Virus record (IMG/VR): IMGVR_UViG_3300009161_005622
Span: 1 to 36,161 of that record
Source: a virus
DNA length: 36,161 bases
Direction: 5' to 3' (one strand)
The stretch's first letter is position 1. Each line of letters starts with the position of its first letter. Made by a program: the position numbers and the translations under genes. Below, piece after piece: positions 6,534-31,487 of the stretch. The notes under the pieces were generated by a model. The model was given only the letters and a program-made list of their open reading frames with translations, had not been told where the DNA came from and ran no database searches.

Positions 6534-6573
6534 AATTATACTTTTAAAAAGTATAATAAACAGTAAAATTATA
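6514..6573 (+). repeat. 33-bp-period tandem repeat with AT-rich palindrome
   Basis: A 27-nt sequence occurs exactly at 6514-6540 and again at 6547-6573. The first copy carries the stop codon of the plus gene, the second the stop of queC. Between them, 6536-6556 is a palindrome with 10-bp arms (TTATACTTTT and its complement) that could act as a weak bidirectional terminator between these convergent genes. Confidence 0.8.
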
Positions 6574-7297
6574 TTTCTCTACAATCGTGCTTAATGTATT
6601 GCACGTTTATTGCTTCTTGCTGCAAATATACTAATGGATCTTTTAGCTTTGCTTCAATAAACCCTTGGAGTCTTAAACTACTACTTGCAGTTGTTGCATC
6701 AGATAAGTTATTACCAGCATAACAAGTCCAAGTCTTCTCAAAGTTTACTCCTAATCGGACTCCTTCGAGAATAATATCCTTCTTACTCATATTAATTAAT
6801 GGAGCAAATACATTAACATTATTTTTTCTATTAAGTAGGTTTAGATTATTAACACTCTCAAGAAACTCGGGCGAACCATCCCAATAACCTGCTAAACTAT
6901 CAGCTTGAGCAGATCCAATATATACATTCTTACAAACTAATGCCTCGGCATATGCAGTTGCAATACTTATGAACACCATATTTCTGTTTGCAACATATGT
7001 ATTAGGTTGCGCTTCACCTTTAATATCTTTTACATTAGGCGTTGCAATGTCATCATTTAAAAGCGAGCTAGTCCTTACAAGCTCCTTAAGAAATTGTACA
7101 TCAATTACTTTATTAGTAATTTCTATACCTTTTGCTTTCAAAGCATTAATATGGTAATCAACACAATCAATCTCTTTGAGATGTCTCTGACCATAATCAA
7201 AAGTTAATGTATGAATTTCTTTAAACTTCTCTGAAGCAAGATAACACAAGACTGTACTATCCATTCCACCACTAAACGGTATAACTACTTTATTCAT
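6569..7297 (-). CDS. queC: QueC-like 7-cyano-7-deazaguanine (preQ0) synthase with degenerate zinc site
   Basis: 242 residues. The PP-loop SGGMDS is at 9-14, FDYGQRH at 33-39 and YVANRNMVF at 101-109, all typical of QueC, which converts 7-carboxy-7-deazaguanine to preQ0 with ATP and ammonia. Normal QueC ends with four zinc cysteines in a WSCY...CGxCxxC-like pattern. Here Cys192 (TWTCYAG) is kept, but the stretch 198-207 reads LSDATTASSS, so the other three cysteines are gone, while the following LRLQGF and DPL remain. The gene overlaps the upstream 74-residue gene by 8 nt and is the last gene after uvsX. Loss of the zinc cysteines may mark a changed reaction, such as amidine formation on preQ0. 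Confidence 0.9.
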   Translation of the reverse strand: MNKVVIPFSGGMDSTVLCYLASEKFKEIHTLTFDYGQRHLKEIDCVDYHINALKAKGIEITNKVIDVQFLKELVRTSSLLNDDIATPNVKDIKGEAQPNTYVANRNMVFISIATAYAEALVCKNVYIGSAQADSLAGYWDGSPEFLESVNNLNLLNRKNNVNVFAPLINMSKKDIILEGVRLGVNFEKTWTCYAGNNLSDATTASSSLRLQGFIEAKLKDPLVYLQQEAINVQYIKHDCREI

Positions 7298-9403: not shown

Positions 9404-10507
9404 TTAAATTCCAAATAAATCAAACAAATCTGTCTGCACAGCTTCAGATGGCTTTCTAGGTACCCAGTTTACAGCTTCATAAAAACGTTCCACACAAGAG
9501 TAAACAATTTTATTGAACATCTTCTCCTTGTCTGGTGTAAAGATACTTTTTAGTTCTTCGGGAAATTTATACTTAAATGCAATTGCATCAATACCATACT
9601 TGTTAGGTTTCTCTACGTAAATATACTTGATCTTATCACCATCTGCAATTGATTCGTACTTAGTATCTAGATTTAATTTTTTGAGAATCAAATTATAAAA
9701 GTATGCTGCTTTAACATGACATGGCATCCGTAATGAAGTCTTAAATTCACTACATTTACTAGCATATTTATCATAATTTCTAATACTAGAAGTAAAAGCA
9801 GTGTCTTTAATATCTAGCCTCTTAAATGTATTATATGCATCCATTAAGATTTTATTCGTACTACTCTGAGAGTGAGTAGTCAGCATATTCTCAATAATAC
9901 TCTTTACATATGGTTTAATTGCTCTTGGCATTGTAGTTCTAACAACTTCTACCCCAGTATATTTCCACTTATCGCAATTAATTCCTTCATCGTCTAATAC
10001 ATGCAAAACATATCGCTTCTTTTCGAGAAATATTCCTGTATCAGCAAGAGACTCGCGCTTAAATAAGAATCGACTATCTTTTGAATTTAGTGAACTTTTC
10101 GCCCATTTAGCAATACCACTATTAATATATTTCTCAATCTTATCTACAACAGAATACGTCTCTTTAGTAATTTTACCGTTCTCCGAAAAATTTAGATTTG
10201 GTATCTTGTTCAGACTAATATATAAAGAATCGGTATCCCCGTAAGTCCTTACTTCTGAAGCAGTTATATTCAAATTGTAATTTGTATTAATAAATTCCGC
10301 ACTTAATTCTGCTGCTTGCTTAATAACAGCTTGACCAGTCAAAGTAATTGATGCTGCAATATCATCATCACCAAAAGAAGCATGCTTGTTTCCGAAGAAA
10401 CCATACACGCTATTAATAAAAACCTTAATACAATGCTGCTTTGTATTAAGCCGCTCAATTTTATCCTTCAGCTCTTTCTGACGAGCTAACAACTGTTCTT
10501 TATTCAT
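9404..10507 (-). CDS. 43B: DNA polymerase gp43, C-terminal fragment (43B)
   Basis: 367 residues containing the second half of a B-family polymerase: motif B KVFINSVYG (28-36), motif C YGDTDS (89-94) with the catalytic aspartates, and the thumb region. The C-terminus DLFDLFGI resembles the clamp-binding peptide at the end of T4 gp43. The N-terminal 25 residues are a charged helix that would continue the fingers helix ending gp43A. The ATG overlaps the TilS-like gene stop by 4 nt, and an AGGAAT-N5-TATAAT element sits 5 nt before it. It must pair with gp43A to form an active enzyme; no catalytic motif is missing between the two. Confidence 0.93.
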   Translation of the reverse strand: MNKEQLLARQKELKDKIERLNTKQHCIKVFINSVYGFFGNKHASFGDDDIAASITLTGQAVIKQAAELSAEFINTNYNLNITASEVRTYGDTDSLYISLNKIPNLNFSENGKITKETYSVVDKIEKYINSGIAKWAKSSLNSKDSRFLFKRESLADTGIFLEKKRYVLHVLDDEGINCDKWKYTGVEVVRTTMPRAIKPYVKSIIENMLTTHSQSSTNKILMDAYNTFKRLDIKDTAFTSSIRNYDKYASKCSEFKTSLRMPCHVKAAYFYNLILKKLNLDTKYESIADGDKIKYIYVEKPNKYGIDAIAFKYKFPEELKSIFTPDKEKMFNKIVYSCVERFYEAVNWVPRKPSEAVQTDLFDLFGI

Positions 10508-11163
10508 AATTTATTATAATTTAATTCCTTGATATCTTTTGTGATTAACGAAATACAATGTTTCTTTAGATTTACTTTCTGTTGTTGCATTGATGGAATA
10601 ATTTCTGTTCTAATCCAGTTACGCCTCGATCCTTTAATCTGATTATTAGTTTCATCCTCAGTCACAAAGTCTTTTAAGTATCCATTCTTCCACCTATTTA
10701 CAAAATTAATAAAATCTTTCTTTTCTGTTAATAAAAAGGGATGAGCAATTTTAAATGTATTGAAGTCTGATACTAATTTAATTGGTCTGTAATTTGCATG
10801 GCCCCTAAAACAATTTAAAATATAACTCTCAACATAATCATCCAGATGATGACCAGTAATTACAATACTATTGTGTGCAATTTCGCCAAAAAATTTTAAT
10901 CGAGCATCTCTACAGCTCTTTTCTGATTTTAAATTCTTTCCATAACCAATATGGTGTTTAATATTTAAATCTTTTACTTTTTTTTCCATTAAATCGTTCT
11001 GTTTACGCAACTTGTGATTAAAATGTAGTGCAGTGACATTATATCCAAGTTTTTGCAAGTAAAAGAAAGCTGCAAGGCTGTCAACTCCCATAGACAGAGC
11101 AACAAAGATCTGTTGTTCTTTACTTTTGAGGCTAATTAAAGAATCTAAATTATTTTTAATCAC
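10504..11163 (-). CDS. TilS-like PP-loop ATPase inside the split polymerase locus
   Basis: 219 residues with a GTG start (11163), supported by the promoter spacing upstream. VALSMGVDS (21-29) is a PP-loop with Met in place of the first Gly of SGGxDS. HFNHKLRK and GHHLDDYVES match tRNA(Ile)-lysidine synthetase (TilS), and GSRRNWIRTEIIP near residue 180 fits the end of the TilS catalytic domain. It lacks the C-terminal domains of bacterial TilS (around 430 aa). TilS changes the CAU anticodon to read AUA, a frequent codon in AT-rich genomes. It could instead modify another RNA or base. It lies between gp43A and gp43B, overlapping 43B by 4 nt. Confidence 0.8.
   Translation of the reverse strand: MIKNNLDSLISLKSKEQQIFVALSMGVDSLAAFFYLQKLGYNVTALHFNHKLRKQNDLMEKKVKDLNIKHHIGYGKNLKSEKSCRDARLKFFGEIAHNSIVITGHHLDDYVESYILNCFRGHANYRPIKLVSDFNTFKIAHPFLLTEKKDFINFVNRWKNGYLKDFVTEDETNNQIKGSRRNWIRTEIIPSMQQQKVNLKKHCISLITKDIKELNYNKL
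10513..10530 (-). promoter_or_regulatory. AGGAAA-class promoter of gp43B, inside the TilS-like gene
   Basis: Minus strand: AAGGAAT, 5 nt, TATAAT, 5 nt, ATG 10507. It lies within the last codons of the TilS-like gene. Confidence 0.5.
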
Positions 11164-11169
11164 ATTTAT

Positions 11170-11187
11170 ATTTTAATTTGTTTCCTG
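11170..11187 (-). promoter_or_regulatory. AGGAAA-class promoter of the TilS-like gene
   Basis: Minus strand: CAGGAAA, 5 nt, TAAAAT, 6 nt, GTG 11163. The spacing supports the GTG start. It is divergent from the late box at 11191. Confidence 0.55.
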
Positions 11188-11190
11188 CTG

Positions 11191-11198
11191 TCTAAATA
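11191..11198 (+). promoter_or_regulatory. Late promoter variant TCTAAATA
   Basis: TCTAAATA lies exactly 5 nt before ATG 11204, the same spacing as the perfect TATAAATA boxes at 5498 and 24492. Confidence 0.65.
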
Positions 11199-11203
11199 AT
11201 TGA

Positions 11204-12232
11204 ATGATTAGTTTTCTACGTTATTTTACACTTTTGAGGGAGGGCGGGTGGTCTAATGCGATTACTCAAGGTACTATAATACACCCACCATTGATTCGTA
11301 AAATATTAATTGAAATAAAAAAAGTTGTAGCTGATTTTAATCACTGGACAAAAAATAATTATGGGCAATTTCCAATTGAGGTAGACTCCCCACTAGGTAG
11401 TTCTGCATATTATGAGCAAGATGATGAATCTACTGTATACGGTGATATAGATATATTAATAATTACACCCGATGGTAATGAGCGCACTCCAGGACGATCA
11501 CGATCTTATTGGAACAAATTATTTCAAAGTTTTATTAAAGAAACAAAACCCGAAAATATTCATAGAGATAGTAAAGAAGGTCATCCAATTTTTATCACAG
11601 AGAACAATGAGTGCGTCCAAGTTGATTTACTTTTTTGCACTGAGAAAAATAAAGCCTGGTATAAAGCAAGATTAACTCCTGAACGAGGATTAAAGGGGGC
11701 TGCTTACGGTAAAATATTTACAGCACTTGGTGACACATTAACTGCTAGCATACAGGATAGTGGAGTACAAGTAAAAATATCTTATGGCAAACGAATGAAT
11801 TATGCAAATACTAAATCTAATTACAAAATAGAAGTTATTAGTACAAATATTAGCACTTTTGCATATGATATTTTAATGGCAGAAATAGGTAGTTCTATAC
11901 CCGCAAATGAAATAAAAGTTGACCCGCTGTTGGATCAAAATAGAGGTGTAGATGTTAATAATATTACTGCTCTCAAATTACTTAAAGCTGTAAAGGGTCT
12001 AGGTAAAAGTTTTGAACAAAATAAACTCTTCGGAAAAGGTCATCTTGAGCATATAAAGAGTTTACAAAATTATTATTCCACCTTTATTTCAAAATATGCC
12101 GAGTTAATGGATAAAAATATTGGTTCCTCTAAACGGGATAAAGCAATTGATAAACAAAAGGCAATTAATGATGTAGAGAAAGTTAAAGAAGGTAAAAATA
12201 GAGTTATTAAGCAGTTTAATTCAATTCCATAG
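11204..12232 (+). CDS. Late nucleotidyltransferase-like protein with capsid-targeting-like N-terminus
   Basis: 342 residues. DSPLGSSAYYEQDD...GDIDIL (61-85) has the GS and DxD signature of the Pol-beta-type nucleotidyltransferase superfamily (Gly65-Ser66, Asp81, Asp83), and VQVDLL supplies a third acidic residue (Asp140). The N-terminus MISFLRYFTLLREGG resembles a T4 capsid-targeting peptide ending in a gp21-type site (LRE before GG). A late promoter sits 5 nt upstream. It is the only plus-strand gene between the two polymerase halves, and its last 17 bases overlap the end of gp43A convergently. Substrate is unknown; RNA, protein or small-molecule nucleotidylation are open. It may be an injected head protein. 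Confidence 0.77.
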   Translation: MISFLRYFTLLREGGWSNAITQGTIIHPPLIRKILIEIKKVVADFNHWTKNNYGQFPIEVDSPLGSSAYYEQDDESTVYGDIDILIITPDGNERTPGRSRSYWNKLFQSFIKETKPENIHRDSKEGHPIFITENNECVQVDLLFCTEKNKAWYKARLTPERGLKGAAYGKIFTALGDTLTASIQDSGVQVKISYGKRMNYANTKSNYKIEVISTNISTFAYDILMAEIGSSIPANEIKVDPLLDQNRGVDVNNITALKLLKAVKGLGKSFEQNKLFGKGHLEHIKSLQNYYSTFISKYAELMDKNIGSSKRDKAIDKQKAINDVEKVKEGKNRVIKQFNSIP

Positions 12233-13724
12233 CTTTAAGCTTTTGAATAATTTCTACTTCTTCATTCTTACATTTTTTAAGCTCTGCTTGAATCTTTTTA
12301 CGTTCTGTATAATAAAAATCTACTAAGTCAGGCATAATACCTTTAGTTTTTTGCGAGAACAAAATCTTTGCTTTTGATACTGCAATATCTTCTGTTTTAA
12401 GATACTTAACAAACTTATCTCTAGTCAATTTAAATATCTGACCATTTACATGTCTAACAGTAATGTGATTATCGTCACTCTCAATAATTTTACCCACTTT
12501 AGTCTCAGGAGACATATTTAAACTAATCATGACGTTCGGATATAGAGAGTTTGCATCAAAACTTACAATATTTTTCTGAAATCCTTTTTGAGGCTCTGCA
12601 ACAAATGCTCCTGGGTTCTTACCTTCTACGTCACTTCTAATAAAAGTTGAAATATGTAAGTTATTTTTTCTTGCCCTAATAGCTGATGCACCCGTAATTA
12701 CAGATAATGTACCCATTGCACCCTCAAACGTAGTCAGCCCCATGTATGCTAACATTCTCAGCAAAGATATATACTGCAACTTAATTTCTAGCTTAACTAA
12801 AAGATTTACATCTTGAATATTATAATCAACAAATGTATTCCAATCAGTTTCCATTAACTGATACAAATCTTTATCGCCAATATCAACTTTTCGTTCATTT
12901 AATTCAGTCTCTCCAATAAAATCTAAACGATATGATTCTTGATTTTTAAATCTAAATCGTTTGTAAATATCTAGGTAATCCACGCACGAAATACCTTCAA
13001 TATACCACTGAATTTGCGGTCTACCAAAGCTATTCATAAAAGTTCTTGAATATACTCTATCAACCGGTGATAGATCATTAACTGCACTAGCACCTAATAT
13101 ATTCCTGATACGATTTACAATATATGGAATATCAAAGAAGGTACTATTCCAGCCACTTAAGATATCGGGAGGATTCTTTCGAATAAACTCAACAAAATCC
13201 GTCAGCAAGTCAATCTCAGTAGCACAGTTAAAGTACTTAATATTTTTCTGCTTAGGTTTGTATTCCCCTGTACCCCAAACATAATATACCTCTTCAATAC
13301 TATCAAAGACGTTGATCAAGTTAATCGGATATGCTGCATTTTCTGGACTAGGAAATCCCATTCCAGTCGGCGCAACAGCTTCAATATCGAAAAAATAAAT
13401 CTTTAACGGAAATTTAACAAAGTCTTCTGTATCATTGTAATCACCATACATATCGATTAGCGATTGCTGCACAGGATTGAAATTTTCAAATAATCTCTTC
13501 GTCCCAGTCTCTTTAATCCACTTCAATTTATCGAAATATGTATTAAATGATTTTTTACGGATCTTAGTATTAAAGATACTTAAGTCGGCACCTTTACTAT
13601 CCTCAATATACACATAGGGATTAAACTTCGAGACATAACTTACTCGCTCACCAGTCTCAGCCCAAGTAAATACTTCAAACGTTTGCTCTTTCGCATTATA
13701 AACTGCATTTCTATATCCAACCAT
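12216..13724 (-). CDS. 43A: DNA polymerase gp43, N-terminal fragment (43A)
   Basis: 502 residues with the N-terminal domain, the 3'-5' exonuclease (FFDIEA 111-116, GWNSTFFDIPY, DYNIQDVN) and polymerase motif A (FDANSLYPNVMIS). It ends in a charged helix, ...AELKKCKNEEVEIIQKLKAMELN, within the fingers and before motif B, which is in the separate 43B gene. The combined length (869) is close to intact T4 gp43 (898), so nothing appears lost. Split gp43 with a break in this region is known from some Aeromonas T4-like phages. An AGGAAA-class promoter with 6-nt spacing precedes its ATG. Confidence 0.94.
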   Translation of the reverse strand: MVGYRNAVYNAKEQTFEVFTWAETGERVSYVSKFNPYVYIEDSKGADLSIFNTKIRKKSFNTYFDKLKWIKETGTKRLFENFNPVQQSLIDMYGDYNDTEDFVKFPLKIYFFDIEAVAPTGMGFPSPENAAYPINLINVFDSIEEVYYVWGTGEYKPKQKNIKYFNCATEIDLLTDFVEFIRKNPPDILSGWNSTFFDIPYIVNRIRNILGASAVNDLSPVDRVYSRTFMNSFGRPQIQWYIEGISCVDYLDIYKRFRFKNQESYRLDFIGETELNERKVDIGDKDLYQLMETDWNTFVDYNIQDVNLLVKLEIKLQYISLLRMLAYMGLTTFEGAMGTLSVITGASAIRARKNNLHISTFIRSDVEGKNPGAFVAEPQKGFQKNIVSFDANSLYPNVMISLNMSPETKVGKIIESDDNHITVRHVNGQIFKLTRDKFVKYLKTEDIAVSKAKILFSQKTKGIMPDLVDFYYTERKKIQAELKKCKNEEVEIIQKLKAMELN

Positions 13725-16758: not shown

Positions 16759-17807
16759 TTACTTAATGATTTGTATAATTCAGTTGTGTGCTTAATAATC
16801 TCTGGTTTATTGTTAATGTCCATTAATTCGACGAATTCAATAATTGCTTGCTCAATATCAATACCCGATAAGTCTTTTCTCTCACAATTAATATTATAAT
16901 CACAATAATTACCTTCATACTCAATAACTATTGAAATTGGATTGTATTGTTTAATTTTAGTTACTAAAATATCAGTATCTTCAGTAGAGATACGCATATT
17001 AATTTTTAATTTAATAAAATTACCTTTAATACTACTTAATACATTTTCAGTTAGGGTAGTCTCTGCTACTAATTCTGATAAAATTAAGACATAATGCTTA
17101 GGCGAGATTGTATTCTCAATATATTCCGTATCTAAATTATCTGTATTTAAAATATAATAGCCTTTTGAGGTATTAGCATCTCCAAAATCCATTTGAAAGG
17201 GGTTACCTACGTATAGCACCCGGCCATCTGTAAATTTCCTATCATCTCTTAAATGAAAGTGACCCGTAATTACGAATTTTGTCTTACTTAAAAGGTCTTG
17301 AGCATTTTCCCCAGTATCACAAATGTAATATGCGCTATTTTTAAAATAATTAATAGCAAAATGCCCGAAAATTACGTCCGAATTTGGTATTTCATCCAAT
17401 TTTACACCCCAAGGCACACATGCAAATGTTTTATCGTGTGATTTAATTACTGTAATAGTGTCAATTACAGTAATATTGCTCCAATTTTTAAATTGCGAGA
17501 CGGAATTTATAGCGGAACTATCCTTTAAAAAGCAATCATGGTTACCAATAATGATTACTAGATTAAAATCCTTAAATTTATCAAGAAGTTTAGTACCAAC
17601 ATGTAAAGTACTAACAGATATATCAGATCTTACGTGAAAAAGATCTCCGCAGAACACTATATCTGTTATATTGCGGGATTTTAAATCTGAAATAAACCAA
17701 TCTGCCCAATCAAGTGAAATTGAATGCCAAAAAGAGCTGTTTTTGTGTACTCCTAAGTGGATATCTGAAAAAATTGCGACTTGTTTGCTGTTAAAAAAAT
17801 TCTGCAT
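16755..17807 (-). CDS. 47: Recombination endonuclease subunit gp47 (SbcD/Mre11-like)
   Basis: 350 residues (T4 339). The calcineurin-like phosphoesterase motifs are complete: FSDIHLG (14-20), FCGDLFHVR, IIGNHDCF, GHFAIN and TGHFHLR. It is the nuclease partner of gp46. An AGGAAT-N5-TATTAT element lies 7 nt before the ATG, inside the end of gp55, so it may be expressed independently of the upstream genes. Confidence 0.95.
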   Translation of the reverse strand: MQNFFNSKQVAIFSDIHLGVHKNSSFWHSISLDWADWFISDLKSRNITDIVFCGDLFHVRSDISVSTLHVGTKLLDKFKDFNLVIIIGNHDCFLKDSSAINSVSQFKNWSNITVIDTITVIKSHDKTFACVPWGVKLDEIPNSDVIFGHFAINYFKNSAYYICDTGENAQDLLSKTKFVITGHFHLRDDRKFTDGRVLYVGNPFQMDFGDANTSKGYYILNTDNLDTEYIENTISPKHYVLILSELVAETTLTENVLSSIKGNFIKLKINMRISTEDTDILVTKIKQYNPISIVIEYEGNYCDYNINCERKDLSGIDIEQAIIEFVELMDINNKPEIIKHTTELYKSLSK

Positions 17808-17814
17808 CTCTTCT

Positions 17815-17832
17815 ATAATAAAGAGATTCCTT
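17815..17832 (-). promoter_or_regulatory. AGGAAA-class promoter of gp47
   Basis: Minus strand: AAGGAAT, 5 nt, TATTAT, 7 nt, ATG 17807. It is mostly in the 23-nt gap after gp55. Confidence 0.55.
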
Positions 17833-18316
17833 ACACATCATCAGAATTTTCACTATAATCGTTATTTATTGGCTTAATATAGATATTTGAATTGCCAGAT
17901 GTTATGTACTCTTCATATTTACTTTCGCGGAACCTTGTTAATGTGTCGTGATGCTTTTTTTCTTTTTTAATTCGATTTATGAATGCATTAATAGCAATCG
18001 TAGTAAAATAACTAAAAGGATTTGACCCATTTAGCATATCATACTTTTTACGAATTAATGCACTGTACATTTTTACTATTGCATCACCAATCATTTCATC
18101 TTTATACGAATAGTTAATGAATGATGGATAATAGCTTAATCTGTTAGCAATTTTATTTAAACAATCACCCAAATAGTTTTCACCTTTACCGGTATCATAA
18201 TAATTTCGAATTGCATCTTTAAATTCTTCCGGTTTGACATAAAATTCAGTAATTTTTATTTTTTTGACTTTAGGTATACCATCAATATCTGGTTCTTTTA
18301 TTGCTTTCTTTTTCAT
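17831..18316 (-). CDS. 55: Late-transcription sigma factor gp55
   Basis: 161 residues (T4 gp55 185). The central part, LNKIANRLSYYPSFINYSYKDEMIGDAIVKMYSALIRKKYD followed by NPFSYFTTIAINAFINRIKKEKK, is the sigma region 2-like core that in T4 binds RNA polymerase and reads TATAAATA. The C-terminus is acidic; in T4 the gp55 tail contacts the sliding clamp. It explains the late boxes found upstream of many genes in this window. It lies between UvsW and gp47, as 55 is near 46-47 in T4. Confidence 0.92.
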   Translation of the reverse strand: MKKKAIKEPDIDGIPKVKKIKITEFYVKPEEFKDAIRNYYDTGKGENYLGDCLNKIANRLSYYPSFINYSYKDEMIGDAIVKMYSALIRKKYDMLNGSNPFSYFTTIAINAFINRIKKEKKHHDTLTRFRESKYEEYITSGNSNIYIKPINNDYSENSDDV

Positions 18317-18343
18317 TTATTATAATGTGGCATCGATTTGCTA

Positions 18344-19780
18344 TTACTCAACTGAAGATTGTAAATTATGATTAGTATACTTAATTTTTTCTTTGTCGTA
18401 TATTTTTATGCGCTGGTCACTGTGTTGTTTTCCATATTTTAAATTATCAGAAATGTCTATAATTTGAAGATTAACTTTATTTTCATGCAATCGTAGACCG
18501 CGTCCAATAGATTGTACAGTTCTAATAAAAGATTTACCGCCAGCTGCAAATATAATCATATGAATGTTTTTTATGTTAACTCCTGTCGAAAATATAGCAC
18601 TAATAGCTATACAAACTATATTTTGCTGCAACTCCATTAGGTTTTTTATTTTTTCGCGCTCCTCAACATCAACTTCACCGCGAATAAAATAAATACTCTT
18701 ACTTTTATTCAAGTTGTCTGTTAATAATTGAAATAATTTTTCACCGTGGTCAATATGATTAACCAATATAAGAATATTTTGATTAAAATTATTACAAATT
18801 GACTTAATTACGTTATTTCTATAACAACTATTCTTTAAAAAATCTAACTCTGTAAGGTAATTTGCAGTTGTTGATCCGGACTTAACATAAACAGGCTTAG
18901 TATTATATTGTATATTAAATACCTTGACTTTAACATCCGATAAAAATCCGCCCTCTCTTAATTCATAGGATGACATATCAATTAATACTGGACCTATCTT
19001 ACCAAGTATATTCCATTTATCGATAAGAGACTCTGGCAAAGTTCCCGTAAATCCAAATTTATAATTAGTTTTAATTTTGCTAATTATTTTGCTTAATTTT
19101 GTAGAAGAGCCGCATTTATGTGCTTCATCTACAATAACTGCATCTACATATTGAATCCACTCATTGTCTTCAAATTTACTCTGCAAATTAGATGAATTAA
19201 CTATACAGACATTTGTTTCTTGATCGAGAGCTGTTGAGCCTGTCCATATTGAGTGCGTAAAGTTGACACCATAATTAATAAAGTCATTATTTGTCTGTGT
19301 TGTTAATCCTAAATCAGGCACAATTACTAATATGCGCAATAATTTATTTGCTGCATAAAATGTTTCAATTAAAGAAGCAATTACGAGAGTTTTGCCTGCT
19401 CCTGTTCCTAATTTTACAATTCCTCTACCATTGCGTACACATTGGGTAATTGCATCAGTCTGATAATCACGTAGCTCTATATTCAACTTAGTTCTCGATA
19501 ACAAAGACAGTGGAGGACGATATGCTGAGACAAAGGACTCGGTTTTGTCTATTAATATTGCTTCAGGCAGACTATTAATATACAATTCAATTTCGCCTGC
19601 TAACCCAACATTAAACTGACCAGTAGGTGTAATAGCATATAAACGCTTAGGAATATAACTATACCCTCTAGTAAATTTCGCAGCTGGGTTTGGTACACTA
19701 AAGTGTTCTCTAATTTTGCTAAACTCATCTCCAAAAATTATACCCTTCCCTTTTTTATTATCGTAGTTAAACGTTATCAT
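18344..19780 (-). CDS. uvsW: UvsW helicase (superfamily 2)
   Basis: 478 residues (T4 503). An N-terminal ~100-residue domain is followed by the helicase core: LRDYQTDAI Q-motif region, Walker A GTGAGKT, VIVDEAHKCG (DEAH box), GFTGTLPES, and the C-terminal ILVNHIDHGEKL and SIGRGLRLHE arginine-finger motif. It remodels branched DNA and D-loops, and in T4 shuts off origin initiation late. The gene starts directly after uvsY, an adjacency also seen in T4. Confidence 0.93.
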   Translation of the reverse strand: MITFNYDNKKGKGIIFGDEFSKIREHFSVPNPAAKFTRGYSYIPKRLYAITPTGQFNVGLAGEIELYINSLPEAILIDKTESFVSAYRPPLSLLSRTKLNIELRDYQTDAITQCVRNGRGIVKLGTGAGKTLVIASLIETFYAANKLLRILVIVPDLGLTTQTNNDFINYGVNFTHSIWTGSTALDQETNVCIVNSSNLQSKFEDNEWIQYVDAVIVDEAHKCGSSTKLSKIISKIKTNYKFGFTGTLPESLIDKWNILGKIGPVLIDMSSYELREGGFLSDVKVKVFNIQYNTKPVYVKSGSTTANYLTELDFLKNSCYRNNVIKSICNNFNQNILILVNHIDHGEKLFQLLTDNLNKSKSIYFIRGEVDVEEREKIKNLMELQQNIVCIAISAIFSTGVNIKNIHMIIFAAGGKSFIRTVQSIGRGLRLHENKVNLQIIDISDNLKYGKQHSDQRIKIYDKEKIKYTNHNLQSSVE

Positions 19781-19781
19781 A

Positions 19782-20177
19782 TTAATTGTTTTCTACTTTA
19801 ATAATTTCTATAATGTTGCGAATATCAAATGTTAGAGATGAAAAGACCTTTTCAGTTTTTTCTAAAAATTCAATTAATATTTCATTCTCTTTAATTTTAA
19901 AATTTAAGCGTTCAATCTCATCAGTCTTATCTACAGTTTTTTCTAGTGCAGCAAAGCTTAAAGTTACTGGGCTATTTTCGGATACTCTTTCAATTAAGGT
20001 TTTGCGAGTAGTATTTTTCTCATTTTTAAGATTATTTAACTCAACTTTGTGATTTATTAATCGCGAAATCCAGAAATGCTTTTTACCAGGTGCATTCATT
20101 TGAACTTCTTTAACATTAAATTCATCAATTTTTAAATCTTGCTCAATTTCTTTAATATATTTTTGTAGCAATTCCAT
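19782..20177 (-). CDS. uvsY: UvsY recombination mediator
   Basis: 131 residues (T4 UvsY 137), strongly helical and charged. An N-terminal EIEQDLKIDEFNVKEVQMNAPGKKHFWISRLINHKVEL segment and a C-terminal helix ending FSSLTFDIRNIIEIIK follow the UvsY plan. Direct adjacency to uvsW is the strongest support. UvsY loads UvsX on gp32-covered ssDNA. Its start is 106 bp from the divergent late gene at 20284. Confidence 0.82.
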   Translation of the reverse strand: MELLQKYIKEIEQDLKIDEFNVKEVQMNAPGKKHFWISRLINHKVELNNLKNEKNTTRKTLIERVSENSPVTLSFAALEKTVDKTDEIERLNFKIKENEILIEFLEKTEKVFSSLTFDIRNIIEIIKVENN

Positions 20178-21757: not shown

Positions 21758-22789
21758 ATGAAATTTAACCAAACATTAACAAGAATAGCAGAGGCAATGA
21801 TTTCACCAGCTGCTACAACAGGGGTTGTTGCTCCTCCCGCAAAGGTACTTGCTCCTAAGCCAACCGGTGTTTCATCAGTTGCACCTGCTCCAGCTCCTGT
21901 TGATAATACTGCAAAAATTACTGAGTTGCAGGCCGCAGTTAATAATTTGCCCGACACTCACCCCGACAAACCTGGATTTTTAAATCAAATAAAAGAGCTA
22001 CAGCAAACAGATAAAATAAAACAAATGCTTGCTAGTCTACAAACACCTAAGCTAGAAAAAACATTAACACCCTTTTATAATATACTCGGCAAAGCATATG
22101 AAGCTCTTAATGAAGCTGGTCCCGATGACCCTGCTTTTGCTCAACCTCCCGGAGCACCACCAGATGCAGCAATGCCGCAACCTAATGCGGGTCAACCCGA
22201 TGCAGCTCAGGCTCCACAGACCCCACCACCTACTCCTGAAGAAGTTGACAAATCAGGTAAGACTGAAGAGCTTGAAAATGACTCAAATAAAATTGCATTA
22301 GTTGGTATTATTACTAGAATATTAGCCGAGTTATTAAAGCACCAAAATGAAGTTATTGTTAATAGCTCATCTGAGGTAGAAGAAAAAAAATCAGCTAAAT
22401 TTAGAGCAAAAGAACTTACTAAATTAATTAACACTACTACATCCGAAAATTTAGCTACATCAAAATTAAATGATTTAATAACACATATTCAAGAACAATT
22501 TTACGTAATTTATCCAACCGGGCAGACAAGTAGAGATGCAAATAATGGTGAGCAAACAAATAAAAGTGAATTAGTTAATATTATAATTGGAATATTAAAT
22601 GAGCTGTTAAAGCATCAAAATGAAGTTGTTACAAATAAAGCGGCTAATATGCCCGATAAATCTTCTGCGGGTAGACGCTCTGAATCACTAAAACGGTTAA
22701 TTGATTATATAGCATCCGACAGTTCTGACTTAAATAAATTATTACAATATATTCAGTCACAATTCAATCAAATTTACCCCGTGACTTAA
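21758..22789 (+). CDS. Late protein with capsid-targeting-like N-terminus and a tandem helical repeat
   Basis: 343 residues. MKFNQTLTRIAEA ends in an I-A-E/A site like those cut by T4 gp21. Two Ala/Pro-rich linkers (about 20-50 and 120-165) enclose a helical part. The C-terminal ~170 residues are two copies of one domain: the first contains ILAELLKHQNEVIVN and HIQEQFYVIYP, the second ILNELLKHQNEVVTN and YIQSQFNQIYP. No enzymatic motif is seen. The late promoter and targeting-like peptide suggest an internal head protein, but a structural protein elsewhere is possible. Confidence 0.75.
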   Translation: MKFNQTLTRIAEAMISPAATTGVVAPPAKVLAPKPTGVSSVAPAPAPVDNTAKITELQAAVNNLPDTHPDKPGFLNQIKELQQTDKIKQMLASLQTPKLEKTLTPFYNILGKAYEALNEAGPDDPAFAQPPGAPPDAAMPQPNAGQPDAAQAPQTPPPTPEEVDKSGKTEELENDSNKIALVGIITRILAELLKHQNEVIVNSSSEVEEKKSAKFRAKELTKLINTTTSENLATSKLNDLITHIQEQFYVIYPTGQTSRDANNGEQTNKSELVNIIIGILNELLKHQNEVVTNKAANMPDKSSAGRRSESLKRLIDYIASDSSDLNKLLQYIQSQFNQIYPVT

Positions 22790-23811: not shown

Positions 23812-23835
23812 TCTGCCCTGGGTAGATTATTTTTT
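23808..23835. terminator. Bidirectional terminator between convergent genes
   Basis: A 9-bp stem (ATAATCTGC pairing with GTAGATTAT, one G-U) around a 5-nt loop, followed by six T. It contains the stop codons of both the protease-like gene and folE. Confidence 0.65.
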
Positions 23836-24468
23836 AGAGAACTCGACAAACTTATAAAACTCGGCTCTTGATTGATCCGAATTTTTTAAAAATGCACCAG
23901 ACATACGAGCAGTTCTCATTGTTGAGTCGTGCTTAATACCTCGATTACTGCAGCAAGTATGTTCACATTCAATCATTACAGCAACTCCTTTATTGTCTTC
24001 ACATACTTTATTAACATACTCTGCAATCTGCGCAGTTAAATTCTCCTGCACCTGCATACGCCTCGCAAACCAATCTACAATTCTATTTAACTTACTCAGA
24101 CCAATAACTTTACCAGTTTTACTCGGAATATATGCAACGTGAGCTAAACCTGTAAATGCTGCATGGTGATGGCTACACATTGAAACAACTTTAATATTAT
24201 TCTGACAAACCATTCCATCATACTGATCTACGTTTTCAAATGCAGTAATTTTAGGCGGTGGATTGTAGCAACCAGAAATTAAGTCATTAACAAATGCTTT
24301 AGCAACACGATTAGGAGTATCAGAACTATTCGGATCATTTCTCCAATCAATCTTTAGAGCATCCATAAACAGTTCATATGCCATACTAGCATTTTTAATA
24401 ATTTGATTCTTCTCTTCGTCAGTCTGAGGAACATTACCGTTCGCGTTACCAATATTTTTTGATTGCAT
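23827..24468 (-). CDS. folE: GTP cyclohydrolase I (FolE)
   Basis: 213 residues. [18 protein letters not shown] holds the zinc Cys/His and substrate residues, [17 protein letters not shown] the conserved helix, QENLTAQIA follows, and [10 protein letters not shown] supplies the second zinc Cys. It converts GTP to dihydroneopterin triphosphate, the first step to preQ0 (and to folate). QueD, QueE and QueC in the window point to the 7-deazaguanine route. Its ATG has an AGGAAA-class promoter with 6-nt spacing, divergent from the late promoter at 24492 and sharing one base with it. Confidence 0.95.
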
Positions 24469-24504: not shown

Positions 24505-25308
24505 ATGTCAGCATTTAATAATTTAATCGAACAAGTAGCATTAAAAGAAAAACTAGTTAAAGTACAGCTAAAGACTGATCCTGCTTTTTCAAATCTAGGT
24601 AACATTAGTAAATTTCAAGGATACATTGGATATATTTTAAGAGAAAATGGGTCTTCTTCAAAAGTATTTCTTGAGCAAAACGGTGCTGTAATAATTGTAC
24701 CTAACAAAATGTTAGAGCCTGTGCAAAATAAATTATCCAAAGTAGATATGTTTAAACTTGCAGCTCTGAGATACTTAAAGGAAAAGCGTGATATTAAGCA
24801 AACAGATACAATAACAAAATTAATTATAAATTGTAATAGTATTGAGTACGTTGAATCATTTTGCATAGATAATGGTTGTACACAAAATGATATAAAAAAT
24901 ATTTATAAATTAGCATTTAATAGTACAATTAATGAAAGTTTGTGGGATGCCGCTAAGCCATGGTTAAAAATTGCAACAGGTCACATGCCAAATAAACCCT
25001 GGGTGCCTGGGGCCCATGATAATTCTGCTGCGAATATAATGGATTTATTAGGTAAAAAAACTACTTCTAAGTCTGGTTATCAGGTACCTGATGCTATTAA
25101 AAAGTACATAAAAGATACTCACGATAACAAAAAAGGTAATGCGGCCGCTGACTCTGCGCAAATTCAAGCATTGACAGCTGAGATTGCGAAAGCTGCTAAT
25201 GCAGAAATACAAAAGAAATTTAACGAAGGGCTCAAAACATATCATTCAGCCATAACAAACGATCAATTAATTCAACTTTATTCGCAAGCCGCGCATCTTA
25301 TAGATTGA
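24505..25308 (+). CDS. Late protein of unknown function with capsid-targeting-like N-terminus
   Basis: 267 residues. [16 protein letters not shown] offers an L-I-E/Q gp21-like site. The following ~100 residues ([30 protein letters not shown]) look beta-rich, then helical; [26 protein letters not shown] is a distinctive Trp/Pro segment near the middle. A long Ala-rich helix ends the protein. No known family recognised. It is late-expressed and convergent with the collar gene, whose stop codon begins on the next base. Confidence 0.72.
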
Positions 25309-26016: not shown

Positions 26017-26733
26017 ATGAGTACTTTTAATTCTACTAAACTAATCAAACTAGGCAGCTGTGCATTTCGACAATTTACTGCTGAAAGTCATTGCAAATAT
26101 GTTCACGGTTATCGTCTATCTGCAAAGATTACAATAAGCTGCAAAGAGGTTGATAAAAATAACTGGTGTTTTGATTTCGGTGACTTTAAGGAGATTAAGT
26201 CTATTCTTGGATATCAATTTGACCACACTCTCTGTATTGCTGAAAATGATCCATTGCGTTCAACTTTTGAATTGTTGCAATCACAGGGTGGGTGCGATTT
26301 ACGGATTATGCCAGCTGTTGGAATTGAAAAATTTGCTGAATGGTGTTACAATACTGTAAATAAATTTGTTCAGAATCGAACTCATAAACGCTGCTGGGTA
26401 TCTTCAGTAGAATTGTTTGAGCATGAAGAGAATTCTGCAATCTATTCACCTAAATGTGATAATACAGTCCTAAATCTTACTGCAGTTAGTGGGGACGAGC
26501 TTCTTGCTAAATATACAGAGAAGTTTCTTTTCGATGAAGTACCTGTACCTGTAGTAAATGGCAGCTGGGAAAATGTTAATATTTATACAAATCCTGACCC
26601 TGAGCCGACATCTGTATCTACTCCTGCTCCCGTATCAACACCAGAGCCTAATCAACGCCGTGGTGCTAATGTCGGATCTAATAACTCACCTGGCAAAGGT
26701 AATTGGTTTGCAGGAACAACTTGGGGTGAATAA
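26017..26733 (+). CDS. queD: 6-carboxytetrahydropterin synthase-like protein (QueD)
   Basis: 238 residues, longer than E. coli QueD (121). ESHCKYVHGYRLSAKI carries the catalytic Cys and zinc His residues; canonical HGH is HGY here, and the loop between the first His and the Cys is absent. NWCFDFGDFKEIK, QFDHTLCIAENDPL, GIEKFAEW and VELFEHEENSAIY follow the family order. From memory a subfamily with this HCxxxHGYR pattern exists, so activity is likely. The last ~60 residues form a Pro/Thr/Ser/Gly-rich tail. It makes 6-carboxy-tetrahydropterin from the FolE product. Confidence 0.88.
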   Translation: MSTFNSTKLIKLGSCAFRQFTAESHCKYVHGYRLSAKITISCKEVDKNNWCFDFGDFKEIKSILGYQFDHTLCIAENDPLRSTFELLQSQGGCDLRIMPAVGIEKFAEWCYNTVNKFVQNRTHKRCWVSSVELFEHEENSAIYSPKCDNTVLNLTAVSGDELLAKYTEKFLFDEVPVPVVNGSWENVNIYTNPDPEPTSVSTPAPVSTPEPNQRRGANVGSNNSPGKGNWFAGTTWGE

Positions 26734-27829: not shown

Positions 27830-27869
27830 ATTCAATATTATTTATTTGAGTTTATCTGGATTAATAGGT

Positions 27870-27887
27870 AAGGAAATAATATATAAT
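27870..27887 (+). promoter_or_regulatory. AGGAAA-class promoter of queE
   Basis: AAGGAAA, 5 nt, TATAAT, 6 nt, ATG 27894. It supports this start over an in-frame TTG at 27846. Confidence 0.68.
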
Positions 27888-27893
27888 GAACAT

Positions 27894-28712
27894 ATGAAAA
27901 ATGAATTAAATGTATCAGAAAAGTTTTACTCAATCCAATGCGAAGGAGTTACTACAGGTTTTCCTGCTTATTTTATTAGATTAAAGGGATGTAACTTAAG
28001 TTGTGGTATCTCAAGTGAAGGCATCAGTAATATCCTCAAAACTGGTAAGGGTAATATTGATTCGGGCTCGTTTGTTGGTGATCTGCATCAGCAAGACAAA
28101 GCAACTTGGACTTGCGACTCAGCTCCGATTTGGTTATTTGGTAATAAAATTACTTATGAGCAAATTGTGCAAGATTGGATTGATGAAGGTATTTTTGAAT
28201 GGGTTAAGTGGGGCAGGGTTCATATTATTTGGACTGGCGGTGAACCAACTATGCCTATTCACCAAGAAGCTATTGTTGGATTTCTAAATTGGTTTAAGCT
28301 TACATATCCTGAGTCAAGTCTCTATAGTGAAATTGAAACTAATGGTACTTTTTATATTAATGATGAATTATTCAATCATTTAAATCAAATTAATTGCTCT
28401 GCTAAATTAGATAACTCAGGTATGGCAGAATCTAAGCGTATTAAACCGGATGCACTTCGACGAATTGTTGAACATAAAAATTATTGGTTTAAATTTGTTA
28501 TTTCAAATGAAAGTGATTTAGAAGAAATTATTACTCAATATAGATTACCGTTTCATATCGATCAACAGCGGTTAATTATTATGCCAGGTCTTGATGCACA
28601 GGAGAACTTTCATGAACGTACTAAATTTATTCTCGAAACGGCTAAAAAATATGGTTTCATTGGGTTGACCCGTTTACATATCTCTGCATGGGATAAGACT
28701 TGCGGAGTTTAA
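27894..28712 (+). CDS. queE: 7-carboxy-7-deazaguanine synthase-like radical SAM enzyme (QueE)
   Basis: 272 residues. FYSIQCEGVTTGFPAYFIRLKGCNLSCG begins as in QueE. The third cluster Cys is displaced: after CNLSC it appears only 37 residues later in ATWTCDSAPIW, giving Cx3C-x36-C rather than Cx3Cx2C. IIWTGGEPTMP is the SAM-binding GGEP motif, YSEIETNGT follows, and SAKLDNSG and NYWFKFVIS complete the barrel. Variant cysteine spacing is known among QueE enzymes, so function is likely kept. It converts the QueD product to 7-carboxy-7-deazaguanine. Confidence 0.92.
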   Translation: MKNELNVSEKFYSIQCEGVTTGFPAYFIRLKGCNLSCGISSEGISNILKTGKGNIDSGSFVGDLHQQDKATWTCDSAPIWLFGNKITYEQIVQDWIDEGIFEWVKWGRVHIIWTGGEPTMPIHQEAIVGFLNWFKLTYPESSLYSEIETNGTFYINDELFNHLNQINCSAKLDNSGMAESKRIKPDALRRIVEHKNYWFKFVISNESDLEEIITQYRLPFHIDQQRLIIMPGLDAQENFHERTKFILETAKKYGFIGLTRLHISAWDKTCGV

Positions 28713-28736: not shown

Positions 28737-29201
28737 ATGGAAGATACAAAACAAATATCAAAAGCCATATTATGCTATAATAGTAGAGTATTATTACTAA
28801 AGCCTGTTTATAGTGTGTATTGGCATTTGCCTGGCGGACATTTGCATGTAAAAGAATCTTATGTAGATGGACTAAAGCGGGAAATTAAGGAAGAAACTAA
28901 TATTAATATTAGTAAGATACTTGAAATACAAAATAAATTAAATTTTAAATTATTTATTTGTATGTCAAATACTGAACATGTTAAATTAAGTGATGAGCAC
29001 TCTAGATTTAAATGGGTTGACCCGTTGTTTTTACGCAATGTATATTTAACCAAAGAAACTCTGCGAGATATCTATTATGTAATAAATAATAGTGAATCAT
29101 TTAAGCAATATATACCTGTTACTTATGCTTACAACTTAAATAAGAAACAGCTTAAAAAAGCCGCTAATGACATAGAAGAAACCCCTAATGAAAACATTTA
29201 A
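28737..29201 (+). CDS. NUDIX hydrolase
   Basis: 154 residues with a full Nudix box: GHLHVKESYVDGLKREIKEETNI fits Gx5Ex7REUxEExxU. LPGGH precedes it. It hydrolyses a nucleoside diphosphate linked to another group; the substrate (damaged dNTP, NAD-type cofactor, RNA cap) cannot be told. Its 3' end overlaps the first copy of a 29-nt repeat that encodes the start of the SOD gene, so originally the SOD gene probably began inside its last codons. Confidence 0.9.
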   Translation: MEDTKQISKAILCYNSRVLLLKPVYSVYWHLPGGHLHVKESYVDGLKREIKEETNINISKILEIQNKLNFKLFICMSNTEHVKLSDEHSRFKWVDPLFLRNVYLTKETLRDIYYVINNSESFKQYIPVTYAYNLNKKQLKKAANDIEETPNENI

Positions 29202-29216
29202 TCAGCAAATATCACA
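29188..29216 (+). repeat. 29-nt direct repeat, left copy (orphan SOD start)
   Basis: Identical to 30071-30099, the first 29 bases of the SOD gene. Here it encodes MKTFNQQISHAYA and then stops, a decapitated start. The ART-like gene lies exactly between the copies. Confidence 0.88.
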
Positions 29217-30061
29217 TGCCTATGCTTAGCAATTTTAAAATAGTACCGTTTAAAACATTTTTTGAAGAGGGTATCGCTCAAAAAAGAAATGGAGTACCGT
29301 ACGGAAATATATATAACTTTAATAGAGATAAAGATGGTAATGTTATTGGTTTCAAGATTGAAAAAGATGTTGAAGAATATAAAAAAAGACGGGCTGATGC
29401 ATTTGAGCCAAGAATAACCACAGACCTTGGAAGTATTACAGACAATATCCGCTACGATATAAACAATCAAATAGATGCAGTGATGAAATATTACGGATTT
29501 AGTTTAAAGGCGGGGTTTGATTCTTTACCCAGAGACGGTTCTCTAGTGTATAGAGGACACAAAGATCCAGACCCATTTTCAAAAAGTGAAGATGCTAAGG
29601 CTAGGGGGAGTTCAGTCTATTTTTCATCTAATCCAGAGTATACACACGGTGCATATTCGGTTGGATATAATTTAGGCTCAACACAAATAGGGCAAACTGG
29701 ATTTAATAGTCTACAATCTACAGTTAGCGACCCAAAATCTTTTTCTGGGTGGGGACCCATAGGAGTTGGATTTTTTACCGTAGCAACTCCTAAAAATGCA
29801 GATAAAATTTTGTGGTATAGTAATTATGGCTACGAAAAGTCAGGAGCAGAAGGATACACTAGATTGCAGCGAGAGATTAAAGATGGGTGGGATTTTGAGT
29901 GTGTTGAACCTATAGAATCATTTTCAAAAATAAAAACATATTTGACATATAATAAATATATGATAAGTTTCGATAGATTAAAACAAGTTCAGCCTGATTT
30001 ATATAACCAGGCTAAAAATAGCTATGTAATTAAATCTATAAAAGAGCTAAGAGCTATTTAA
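29216..30061 (+). CDS. Late protein with ADP-ribosyltransferase-like motifs, between direct repeats
   Basis: 281 residues. VPFKTFFEEG near the N-terminus resembles the capsid-targeting peptides of the neighbouring proteins. SLVYRGHKDPDP and GSSVYFSSNPEYTHGAYSVGYNLG are reminiscent of the R and STS motifs of R-S-E type ADP-ribosyltransferases; I cannot place the catalytic ExE motif with certainty (candidates are in the C-terminal third, around DFECVEP). T4 Alt is a packaged and injected ADP-ribosyltransferase, so the context is apt. The gene starts on the last base of the left 29-nt repeat and ends just before the right copy, showing it was inserted into the NUDIX-SOD junction. Confidence 0.6.
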   Translation: MPMLSNFKIVPFKTFFEEGIAQKRNGVPYGNIYNFNRDKDGNVIGFKIEKDVEEYKKRRADAFEPRITTDLGSITDNIRYDINNQIDAVMKYYGFSLKAGFDSLPRDGSLVYRGHKDPDPFSKSEDAKARGSSVYFSSNPEYTHGAYSVGYNLGSTQIGQTGFNSLQSTVSDPKSFSGWGPIGVGFFTVATPKNADKILWYSNYGYEKSGAEGYTRLQREIKDGWDFECVEPIESFSKIKTYLTYNKYMISFDRLKQVQPDLYNQAKNSYVIKSIKELRAI

Positions 30062-30070
30062 TTTATCCCT

Positions 30071-30099
30071 ATGAAAACATTTAATCAGCAAATATCACA
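30071..30099 (+). repeat. 29-nt direct repeat, right copy (SOD start)
   Basis: Encodes the first nine residues of the SOD targeting peptide; identical to 29188-29216, with an 883-nt period. Confidence 0.88.
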
Positions 30100-30700
30100 C
30101 ATTCTAGAGGCTACTAACTCTACCTATAAACCTGCAAAACTTCCCTATAACCTTAATGCATTGAGTCCAATTATTAGTAGTAAGACGATGAATGAGCATT
30201 ATAATAAACATTATAAGAATTATATAAACAAATTAAATGATGCAATTAAAGGAACTAAGATAGTTGATATTGTAACATTAATTAAAAGCTGTAAATCTAA
30301 GCCAGATATTATTAAAAATAATGCTGGAGGTTTTTATAATCATAGTCTATTTTGGAATATGCTATCACCTAAGTCTGAATTAAGTGGAGATATTAAAGAT
30401 GTTATAATTGACGATTGGGATAGTTTTAAGGGATTTAAAGAAGATTTTATTAATGTTGCTTTAAAACAATTTGGATCCGGTTGGTGCTGGCTAGTTAAGG
30501 ATAAAAACAAATTTGAAATTATTACAACTGCTAATCAAGACAATCCATTAATGACAAATAAAGATATAGGTATCGTCTTGGGGGTAGACCTATGGGAACA
30601 CAGTTTTTATCTGGATTACAAGTCAGACAAGCAGACTTACTTAAACAAAGTTCTCGGCATTATTAATTGGGATTATTGCAATAGTTTGTTGATTTCTTAA
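30071..30700 (+). CDS. Mn-type superoxide dismutase with capsid-targeting-like N-terminal extension
   Basis: 209 residues. Metal ligands are intact: His43 (NEHYNKHY), His91 (NNAGGFYNHSLFW), Asp173 and His177 (DLWEHSFY). FGSGWCWLV and TTANQDNPL (Gln156) point to the Mn/cambialistic class rather than Fe. Cellular enzymes begin near LPY (residue 24). The first ~20 residues, MKTFNQQISHILEATNSTYK, are an extension that resembles T4 capsid-targeting peptides and contains an I-L-E/A site. This suggests an injected or capsid-stored enzyme that removes superoxide at the start of infection. It is third in a late transcription unit. Confidence 0.92.
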   Translation: MKTFNQQISHILEATNSTYKPAKLPYNLNALSPIISSKTMNEHYNKHYKNYINKLNDAIKGTKIVDIVTLIKSCKSKPDIIKNNAGGFYNHSLFWNMLSPKSELSGDIKDVIIDDWDSFKGFKEDFINVALKQFGSGWCWLVKDKNKFEIITTANQDNPLMTNKDIGIVLGVDLWEHSFYLDYKSDKQTYLNKVLGIINWDYCNSLLIS

Positions 30701-30722: not shown

Positions 30723-31487
30723 ATGAGAATAGCAATTAGCGGAACAGCATGTACAGGTAAATCGACTCTTATTGCAGATATGATTAAAAAGTGGCCAAAA
30801 TATACCACTCCTGCAAAAACTTACCGGGCACTATTAAAAGATACTCCGCATAGTAAACAATGTAATAAAGATGGTCAGTGGGCAATCTTGAATCACTTAA
30901 TTGATGATTTGCAAAAATATACTAAAGATGATATGGTATTATTTGATAGAGCGCCACTTGATAATTTAATCTATTCTATGTGGTCGTTTGATAAGGGCGC
31001 AAGCGATATTGATGAACCATTTATTGAAAAATGTATTCCATTGGTGAGAGAGTCAATGCGTCTTCTTGATATTATATTTTTTATACCACTAACTAAGTCG
31101 TCTCCTATTACTATTGTCGATGATAAGACAAGAGAGGTTGACCCGCTTTATATTACAGAAATCGACCACCTCTTTAAGGCTATTCTGCAGCAATTTAATA
31201 AAGCACCTGAAAATTCTGTTTTCTTCCCCAAGGGTGATGCTCCTGCAATTATTGAGATCTTTGGTAAGCCAGCAGAGCGTATATACTTAATTGATCAATA
31301 TTTAAATGAAGATGGAGATATTATCGGTGCAGAGGGGGATACAGTATTAAACCCAGAGATGCTAAAAAGTATTGAGCAATTATATGCTCAGCAAACAGAG
31401 GAATTAAAATTATCTAAAAATGTCGATTTTCAGAAAGATCTTATTAAGAAGTACGAAAAGAAAATAGGTAAAAAGCTTATTAATTAG
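30723..31487 (+). CDS. P-loop kinase/ATPase (NadR- or AAA_28-like)
   Basis: 254 residues. IAISGTACTGKSTL (3-16) is a Walker A of the nucleotide-kinase type. VLFDRAPLDNLIYSMW supplies the DR motif found in deoxynucleoside and NadR-type kinases, and a lid-like region with charged residues follows. The C-terminal ~60 residues are an extra charged helical tail. Substrate unknown: nucleoside, ribosylnicotinamide or another small molecule. The stop overlaps that of the convergent fibre-like gene by 4 nt. Confidence 0.78.
   Translation: MRIAISGTACTGKSTLIADMIKKWPKYTTPAKTYRALLKDTPHSKQCNKDGQWAILNHLIDDLQKYTKDDMVLFDRAPLDNLIYSMWSFDKGASDIDEPFIEKCIPLVRESMRLLDIIFFIPLTKSSPITIVDDKTREVDPLYITEIDHLFKAILQQFNKAPENSVFFPKGDAPAIIEIFGKPAERIYLIDQYLNEDGDIIGAEGDTVLNPEMLKSIEQLYAQQTEELKLSKNVDFQKDLIKKYEKKIGKKLIN

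Follow-up and report, generated by a model that had tools for sequence, protein, structure and literature searches.

Phage head cargo described so far consists mainly of restriction inhibitors and modifiers of the host polymerase. The best-known examples, the T4 internal proteins IPI, IPII and IPIII (and Alt), carry a short MKTF/MKTY propeptide with an aromatic residue at position 4 and an (I/L)xE↓A site for gp21 (arrows mark cut sites, here and below); the tag is MKTFKEF...ITE↓A in IPI and MKTYQEFIAE↓A in both IPII and IPIII, and the mature proteins, which are unrelated, have only the tag in common. The first 10 residues of IPIII are enough for packaging, residues 4 and 7 serving targeting and residues 8 and 10 processing; when foreign proteins carry the T4 targeting sequence as a fusion, they too are packaged and delivered (PMC9026906). 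Once delivered, T4 internal proteins function in the newly infected host (PMC12373910).

Two other systems bear on a virus-borne superoxide dismutase (SOD). Chlorovirus PBCV-1 encodes a Cu/Zn SOD (A245R) as a late gene and packages the enzyme in the virion, and less superoxide accumulates during PBCV-1 infection than with a SOD-less virus (PMC7019647). The polyvalent proteins of phages and conjugative elements are multi-domain, contain zincin-like domains and are delivered with the DNA; their survey makes no mention of SOD (Iyer et al. 2017). None of the open-access papers that we searched describes a SOD as cargo of a phage head, which is no proof of absence.

Here we analyze a viral DNA stretch of 36,161 nucleotides (IMG/VR record IMGVR_UViG_3300009161_005622; "the window") that encodes a SOD with an N-terminal extension. 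Its tag resembles those of the T4 internal proteins, but its mature part is a SodFM metabolic enzyme rather than a restriction inhibitor or RNA polymerase modifier, and it is known here from sequence alone. Like A245R it is a virus-encoded SOD; A245R is an unrelated Cu/Zn enzyme of a eukaryotic virus with neither a T4-type tag nor a prohead protease. Unlike the polyvalent proteins, the window SOD is single-domain, although SOD fusions of related phages look similar to them.

The SOD gene and its product

The gene at 30071–30700 (plus strand) encodes a 209-residue Mn-type SodFM superoxide dismutase, as indicated by its open reading frame, Pfam and PDB searches, alignments and codon comparison with the sister contig L001. 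Pfam searches matched Sod_Fe_N (E 2.5e-21, 76.4 bits against a cut-off of 27) and Sod_Fe_C (E 6.6e-32, 110 bits against a cut-off of 20.9), and the top PDB matches found with phmmer were MnSODs (E 2.6e-50), aligned from query residue 22. The initial annotation had reported all four metal ligands and the Mn-type Gln, and these are indeed present and invariant: the ligands His43 (codon 30197–30199), His91 (30341–30343), Asp173 and His177 (DLWEH, 30587–30601) and the second-sphere Gln156 (30536–30538), which comes from the C-terminal half within NQDNPL, are the same in 17 phage SODs and remain so when bacterial SODs are added (29 phage and bacterial sequences; all codons on the plus strand). Second-sphere or interface residues H47, Y51, S136, W138, E176 and Y180 are likewise invariant in the 17.

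An AlphaFold model computed with 29 sequences has a mean pLDDT of 86 and a pTM of 0.85, with pLDDT below 50 only at residues 1–7, and matches staphylococcal MnSODs in the PDB with TMt values of up to 0.91. Fold, ligands, Gln and oligomer-interface residues are thus those of bacterial SodA (S. aureus 5n56/6ex3, S. equorum 5x2j), from which the phage protein differs in its ~40% identity and in a 13-residue tag that the cellular enzymes lack. Selection is evident from the comparison with L001, in which 15 codon differences are synonymous and 2 non-synonymous. Sequence and model together indicate that the SOD is maintained and very probably active. Judged from its residues, its metal is likely Mn, not Fe; of the NCBIfam subtype models, the one for Fe and the one for Mn each match below their own cut-off.

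The N-terminal extension

Relative to cellular enzymes, the SOD had been credited with about 20 extra N-terminal residues. The extension is genuine but shorter, at ~16 residues, since residue 6 of 5x2j is aligned with query residue 22. For homologues from cells and plasmids, the alignment starts at query residue 16–24, mostly at 18 or later. We looked for the same extension on cellular SODs and found nothing comparable among ~30 relatives taken from bacterial and archaeal genomes; their N-termini are short, and the longer ones resemble signal peptides or low-complexity leaders.

The first 13 codons (30071–30109, plus strand) encode a predicted capsid-targeting propeptide, MKTFNQQISHILE, recognized by its likeness to T4 IPI and IPIII, by the tag register of the lineage and by the distance from site to core. 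The predicted cut, ILE↓A, lies between residues 13 and 14 and 10 residues ahead of the SOD core, a spacing also seen in L110 and L147. MKTFNQQISHILE↓A has the form of a 10–20-residue N-terminal propeptide with an end (L/I)xE ahead of a small residue. Compared with the T4 tags, F4 provides the expected aromatic residue, position 7 holds Gln instead of the T4 Phe, and residue 8 is Ile; Gln7 and Ile8 follow the register of the window's lineage, not that of T4. From its sequence, there is good support for an extra N-terminus built like the capsid-targeting propeptides of T4, prohead-protease site included. The head-targeting peptide proposed in the initial annotation is, on this tag register and protease-type site, well supported; more support comes from unrelated lineage proteins that carry this tag form, from the prohead protease of the lineage, from cellular SODs, which lack such an extension, and from independent SOD lineages with a site of the same kind.

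The prohead protease of the gp21 (S77) type is encoded in 11 of 13 large records of the window's lineage and in 11/20 SOD-bearing records. The 36-kb window fragment itself contains no capsid, prohead protease or scaffold genes. By eye, the major capsid proteins of the lineage have predicted sites (CFE↓A, IRE↓G or LKE↓A) near the N-terminus, where T4 gp23 is cut. In phages with multi-domain SODs, the capsid proteins show LINE↓A at the corresponding position, which resembles the LINE↓M and IINE↓M that precede their SODs.

Tags in the window and its lineage

The N-terminus had also been matched to a tag family, which holds up: several other window ORFs begin alike, and in the wider lineage such N-termini occur far above chance. 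Within the 36-kb window, a broad tag regular expression matched 8/42 N-termini and 13/144 internal Mets (p=0.07, not significant); as this expression is too weak within single genomes, lineage-wide tests were used in its place. The lineage was gathered via the neighboring thymidylate-kinase gene (80 loci, 516 non-redundant proteins), and its tags share the register F4-N5-x2-hydrophobic8-x2-[LI]11-L12-E13. Searched as F/Y near position 4, a hydrophobic residue near 8, two hydrophobics and E near 13 before a small residue or Lys, the pattern was found at 21 of the 516 N-termini, compared with 0 of 1330 internal Mets (p=2e-12); MSNFNNKFKSLLE↓G, MTKFNDKFEQLLE↓S and MSLFNDKINEILE↓K are among the matching N-termini. 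Because the pattern was drawn with examples already in view, we trained a narrow profile of 14 columns on nine tags with no SOD among them. The score of the window SOD was equalled by 804 of 82,748 internal windows (top 1%) and by 9/1281 internal Mets, and T4's own tags fail this profile, which we therefore regard as a conservative test of one subtype.

Other tagged proteins lie in the window, all on the plus strand. A 267-residue protein (24505–25308) has a strong lineage-type tag with a profile score of 10.5, reached by 8 of the 82,748 internal windows (top 0.01%), and its true start is probably the ATG at 24505. An Ala/Pro-rich protein of 343 residues (21758–22789) bears the tag MKFNQTLTRIAE↓A, which fits the register pattern, scores poorly in the narrow profile and is kept in a homologue from L018 (84% identical). 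The tag-like N-terminus of a 342-residue protein (11204–12232), MISFLRYFTLLRE↓GG, has a borderline score. In the syntenic relative L110/L198, the SOD tag MSYESKVYQLLE↓A is diverged but of the same design; the gene upstream of the SOD carries MSLFNDKINEILE↓K, a score matched by none of the 82,748 internal windows, and the gene downstream carries a tag ending in SVNE↓A.

SODs of other phages

At least 327 viral stretches in IMG/VR encode SOD relatives, the best 80 of which were examined. Matches to SOD were also found in 28 "phage" records; H1–H14 (Staphylococcus, Listeria, Enterococcus, Salmonella) and MW462191 resemble bacterial DNA in phage records and were left out as phage SODs. The phage SODs fall into four classes. 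Class (a), single-domain with a short tag, comprises the window and L001 (ILE↓A), L110 (LLE↓A), L147, L151 and L152 (ILE↓G or ILE↓S) and the cultured PA5oct-type Pseudomonas phages (IAE↓A, in MNDSIKKYISIAE↓AASS), with the Glu 9–10 residues ahead of the SOD core in the members measured. Class (b) has no extension (L002, L003, L115, L116) and class (c) a coiled leader of 35 residues (L004–L013). Class (d), multi-domain proteins of 320–915 residues, makes up 71 of 84 listed sequences from viral contigs, with a few shortened by contig ends; most have [ILV]xE↓M or LTE↓A eight residues ahead of the SOD core. Independent SOD lineages carry a site 8–10 residues ahead of the core: ILE↓G in L147, IAE↓A in the PA5oct type and LTE↓A in L138.

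Shuffled sequences were used to gauge chance. A site near the core is present in 20 of 22 non-redundant N-terminal extensions (4.8 expected) and [ILVMF]xE[AGST] in 12 of 12 non-redundant linkers after the SOD (3.0 expected), with p-values that are optimistic in both tests because rows share ancestry. In the fusion linkers, E245 and E255 are invariant amid otherwise variable sequence, and linker residues 239–256 have low pLDDT; by sequence and model, both features point the same way as the shuffle tests on linker sites.

SOD fusions of 500–900 residues are encoded at L177:15941–17503, L122:4848–6416, L137:4488–6701 and L138:4917–7652, with linkers rich in [ILV]xE. They contain a HEWVHEHQ domain of zincin-like type, a C-terminal domain that is PD-(D/E)XK-like by eye, or both. 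From their sequences, these four multi-domain proteins are possibly head-cargo polyproteins. The tagless SODs of L002, L003 and L116, from another phage group, adjoin genes for small membrane or lysis-type proteins, not head genes. Divergent SODs are found in cultured jumbo phages at L041:5971–6519 (Pseudomonas phage Callisto) and L040:5968–6537 (Vibrio phage 2.275.O); that of Callisto starts MNDSIKKYISIAE↓AASS and seemingly lacks the Mn-type Gln, and its metal use may therefore differ. Mass spectrometry of MIJ3 virions named only four major structural proteins and speaks neither for nor against a SOD.

In a 60-row tree, phage SODs need 2 label changes compared with 20 when labels are shuffled, which indicates that they are not scattered recent pickups from hosts. 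The window SOD sits on a long branch of this tree, and a single origin of phage SODs is conceivable.

Gene neighborhood

The window SOD is flanked downstream by a thymidylate-kinase-like gene (30723–31487, plus strand; PHROG 2107), the synteny anchor for the 80 related loci, and on the other side by an inserted gene for 281 residues (29216–30061, plus strand) that is missing from sister L001, where a NUDIX gene takes this place. The inserted gene has no Pfam, PHROG or phage match; YRG...YFSSNPEY motifs make its product an ADP-ribosyltransferase-like candidate by eye, and its N-terminus, MPMLSNFKIVPFKTFFEE↓G, is tag-like but weak, with a low tag score. An exact direct repeat of 29 nt, ATGAAAACATTTAATCAGCAAATATCACA, flanks the 854-bp insert that holds this gene: the left copy (29188–29216) repeats the SOD tag-coding sequence in truncated form and the right copy (30071–30099) is the start of the SOD gene, from its ATG exactly (both plus strand). 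In L001 the 29-nt sequence is present once and the insert is missing. L034 carries a homologue of the 281-residue gene directly before a tagged gene. The flanking repeat and the L034 arrangement suggest, at the level of sequence, that tag-coding DNA may be a landing site for new cargo genes.

In six related phages (L025/L013, L177/L093, L122, L145, L137 and L138), the SOD gene is immediately followed, on its own strand, by a head-tail adaptor gene, except that one extra gene intervenes in L013; the adaptor is PHROG 211, shown for L025, L177, L122 and L138. Where tested, the gene before the SOD in these phages encodes a DNA helicase (PHROG 62). A terminase had been considered for this upstream position and was rejected on the PHROG results; a terminase-like part occurs only in a 952-residue protein of G004. 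The T4 late promoter TATAAATA is not enriched in the window (14 occurrences, 12 expected), and none lies between 26,767 and 32,006, hence no T4 late promoter is near the SOD.

The window also encodes QueC (above cut-off) and FolE-, QueD- and QueE-like proteins at 6569–7297 (minus), 23827–24468 (minus), 26017–26733 (plus) and 27846–28712 (plus), a preQ0 pathway that suggests 7-deazaguanine modification of the phage DNA. Its DNA polymerase is seemingly split (9404–13724, minus strand) into ORFs at 12216–13724 and 9404–10507, between which lie a TilS-like ORF and the tagged 342-residue ORF; in sister L033 a 744-residue ORF (17717–19951) spans the split part and may carry an intein. A fragment at L033:6850–7275, beside a DnaB-like helicase gene, ends in ...ANDILTHNSE and resembles an intein end, which the window helicase lacks.

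Discussion

We propose that this T4-related phage loads its SOD into the head, where it is clipped, and injects it along with its DNA, a reading to which its sequence features lead us to assign a probability of roughly three in four, mainly for packaging. Late in infection, the propeptide would anchor the SOD to the prohead scaffold core, and a T4-type prohead protease would cut at ILE↓A inside the head, freeing an enzyme of ordinary cellular shape that starts ATNSTYKPAKLPY. The SOD would then leave the head together with the DNA and clear superoxide in the new host cell before phage genes are expressed. The sequences show the family, ligands and selection of the SOD, its tag and site pattern, and the tag family and protease of the lineage; packaging, cleavage, ejection, refolding with metal loading, and early action, which the initial annotation also proposed, are inferred. 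The place of the SOD gene beside a head-tail adaptor gene in related phages is a further point in favor. Several points weigh against a cargo role: an oligomeric metalloenzyme would have to unfold to pass the tail, the tag motif alone is weak, its residue 7 departs from T4, the window fragment holds no capsid, protease or scaffold genes, and some phage SODs have no extension (L002, L003, L115, L116) or a different, 35-residue leader (L004–L013).

That extensionless SODs exist is also what one would expect if the enzyme were an ordinary intracellular auxiliary protein against superoxide during replication and its extension an incidental leader. The PA5oct-type jumbo phages carry their SOD among ClpX, ClpS and chaperone genes rather than head genes, and the window neighbors are NUDIX, kinase and other metabolic genes. 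Such a role is nevertheless rather unlikely, as several SOD lineages whose tags otherwise differ keep a protease-type site at constant spacing from the core, unrelated neighboring proteins bear the same tag form, and cellular SODs lack the site. The location beside head-tail adaptor genes and the fusion to other domains in related phages might instead reflect a structural or scaffold-associated head protein whose enzyme activity is lost or unneeded; we consider this very improbable, because a purely structural role would not maintain ligands, Mn-type Gln and second-sphere residues that are invariant in 17/17 phage SODs.

The SOD could also be packaged and yet do its work inside the particle, shielding packaged DNA and the capsid against oxidation while the virus persists in water for long periods. 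As packaging is common to both, this overlaps with the injection reading: the packaging evidence is the same and no sequence feature separates the two. We judge protection of the particle to be unlikely. Superoxide reacts poorly with DNA itself, which speaks against it. A second point against it is that T4 internal proteins with such a signal are injected and act in the host (PMC12373910).

Returning to packaging followed by injection, the window SOD belongs by sequence to a wider class of phage SODs, some of which appear to be cargo polyproteins. Tentatively, and at slightly less than even odds, the sequences of uncultivated T4-superfamily phages suggest SOD as a general head cargo, often within a polyprotein of leader, zincin-like domain, SOD and C-terminal domain; the prohead protease would cut the [ILV]xE linkers, one gene beside the head-tail adaptor could deliver several enzymes at injection, and the window SOD would be a single-domain member.

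With its well-supported tag, as read from sequence, the phage SOD joins two known kinds, the capsid-targeted cargo of T4 and the SodFM enzymes. The tag logic offers a route to listing the head cargo of uncultivated T4-like phages without cultivation of the phage, from sequence data. If the proposal is true, redox defense joins the list of uses of phage head cargo. If superoxide meets phages at entry, a ready-made SOD would be among the few answers that work before transcription, and the tagged SOD makes it directly testable whether phages are held back on entering the cell by oxidative stress or by redox-based immunity.
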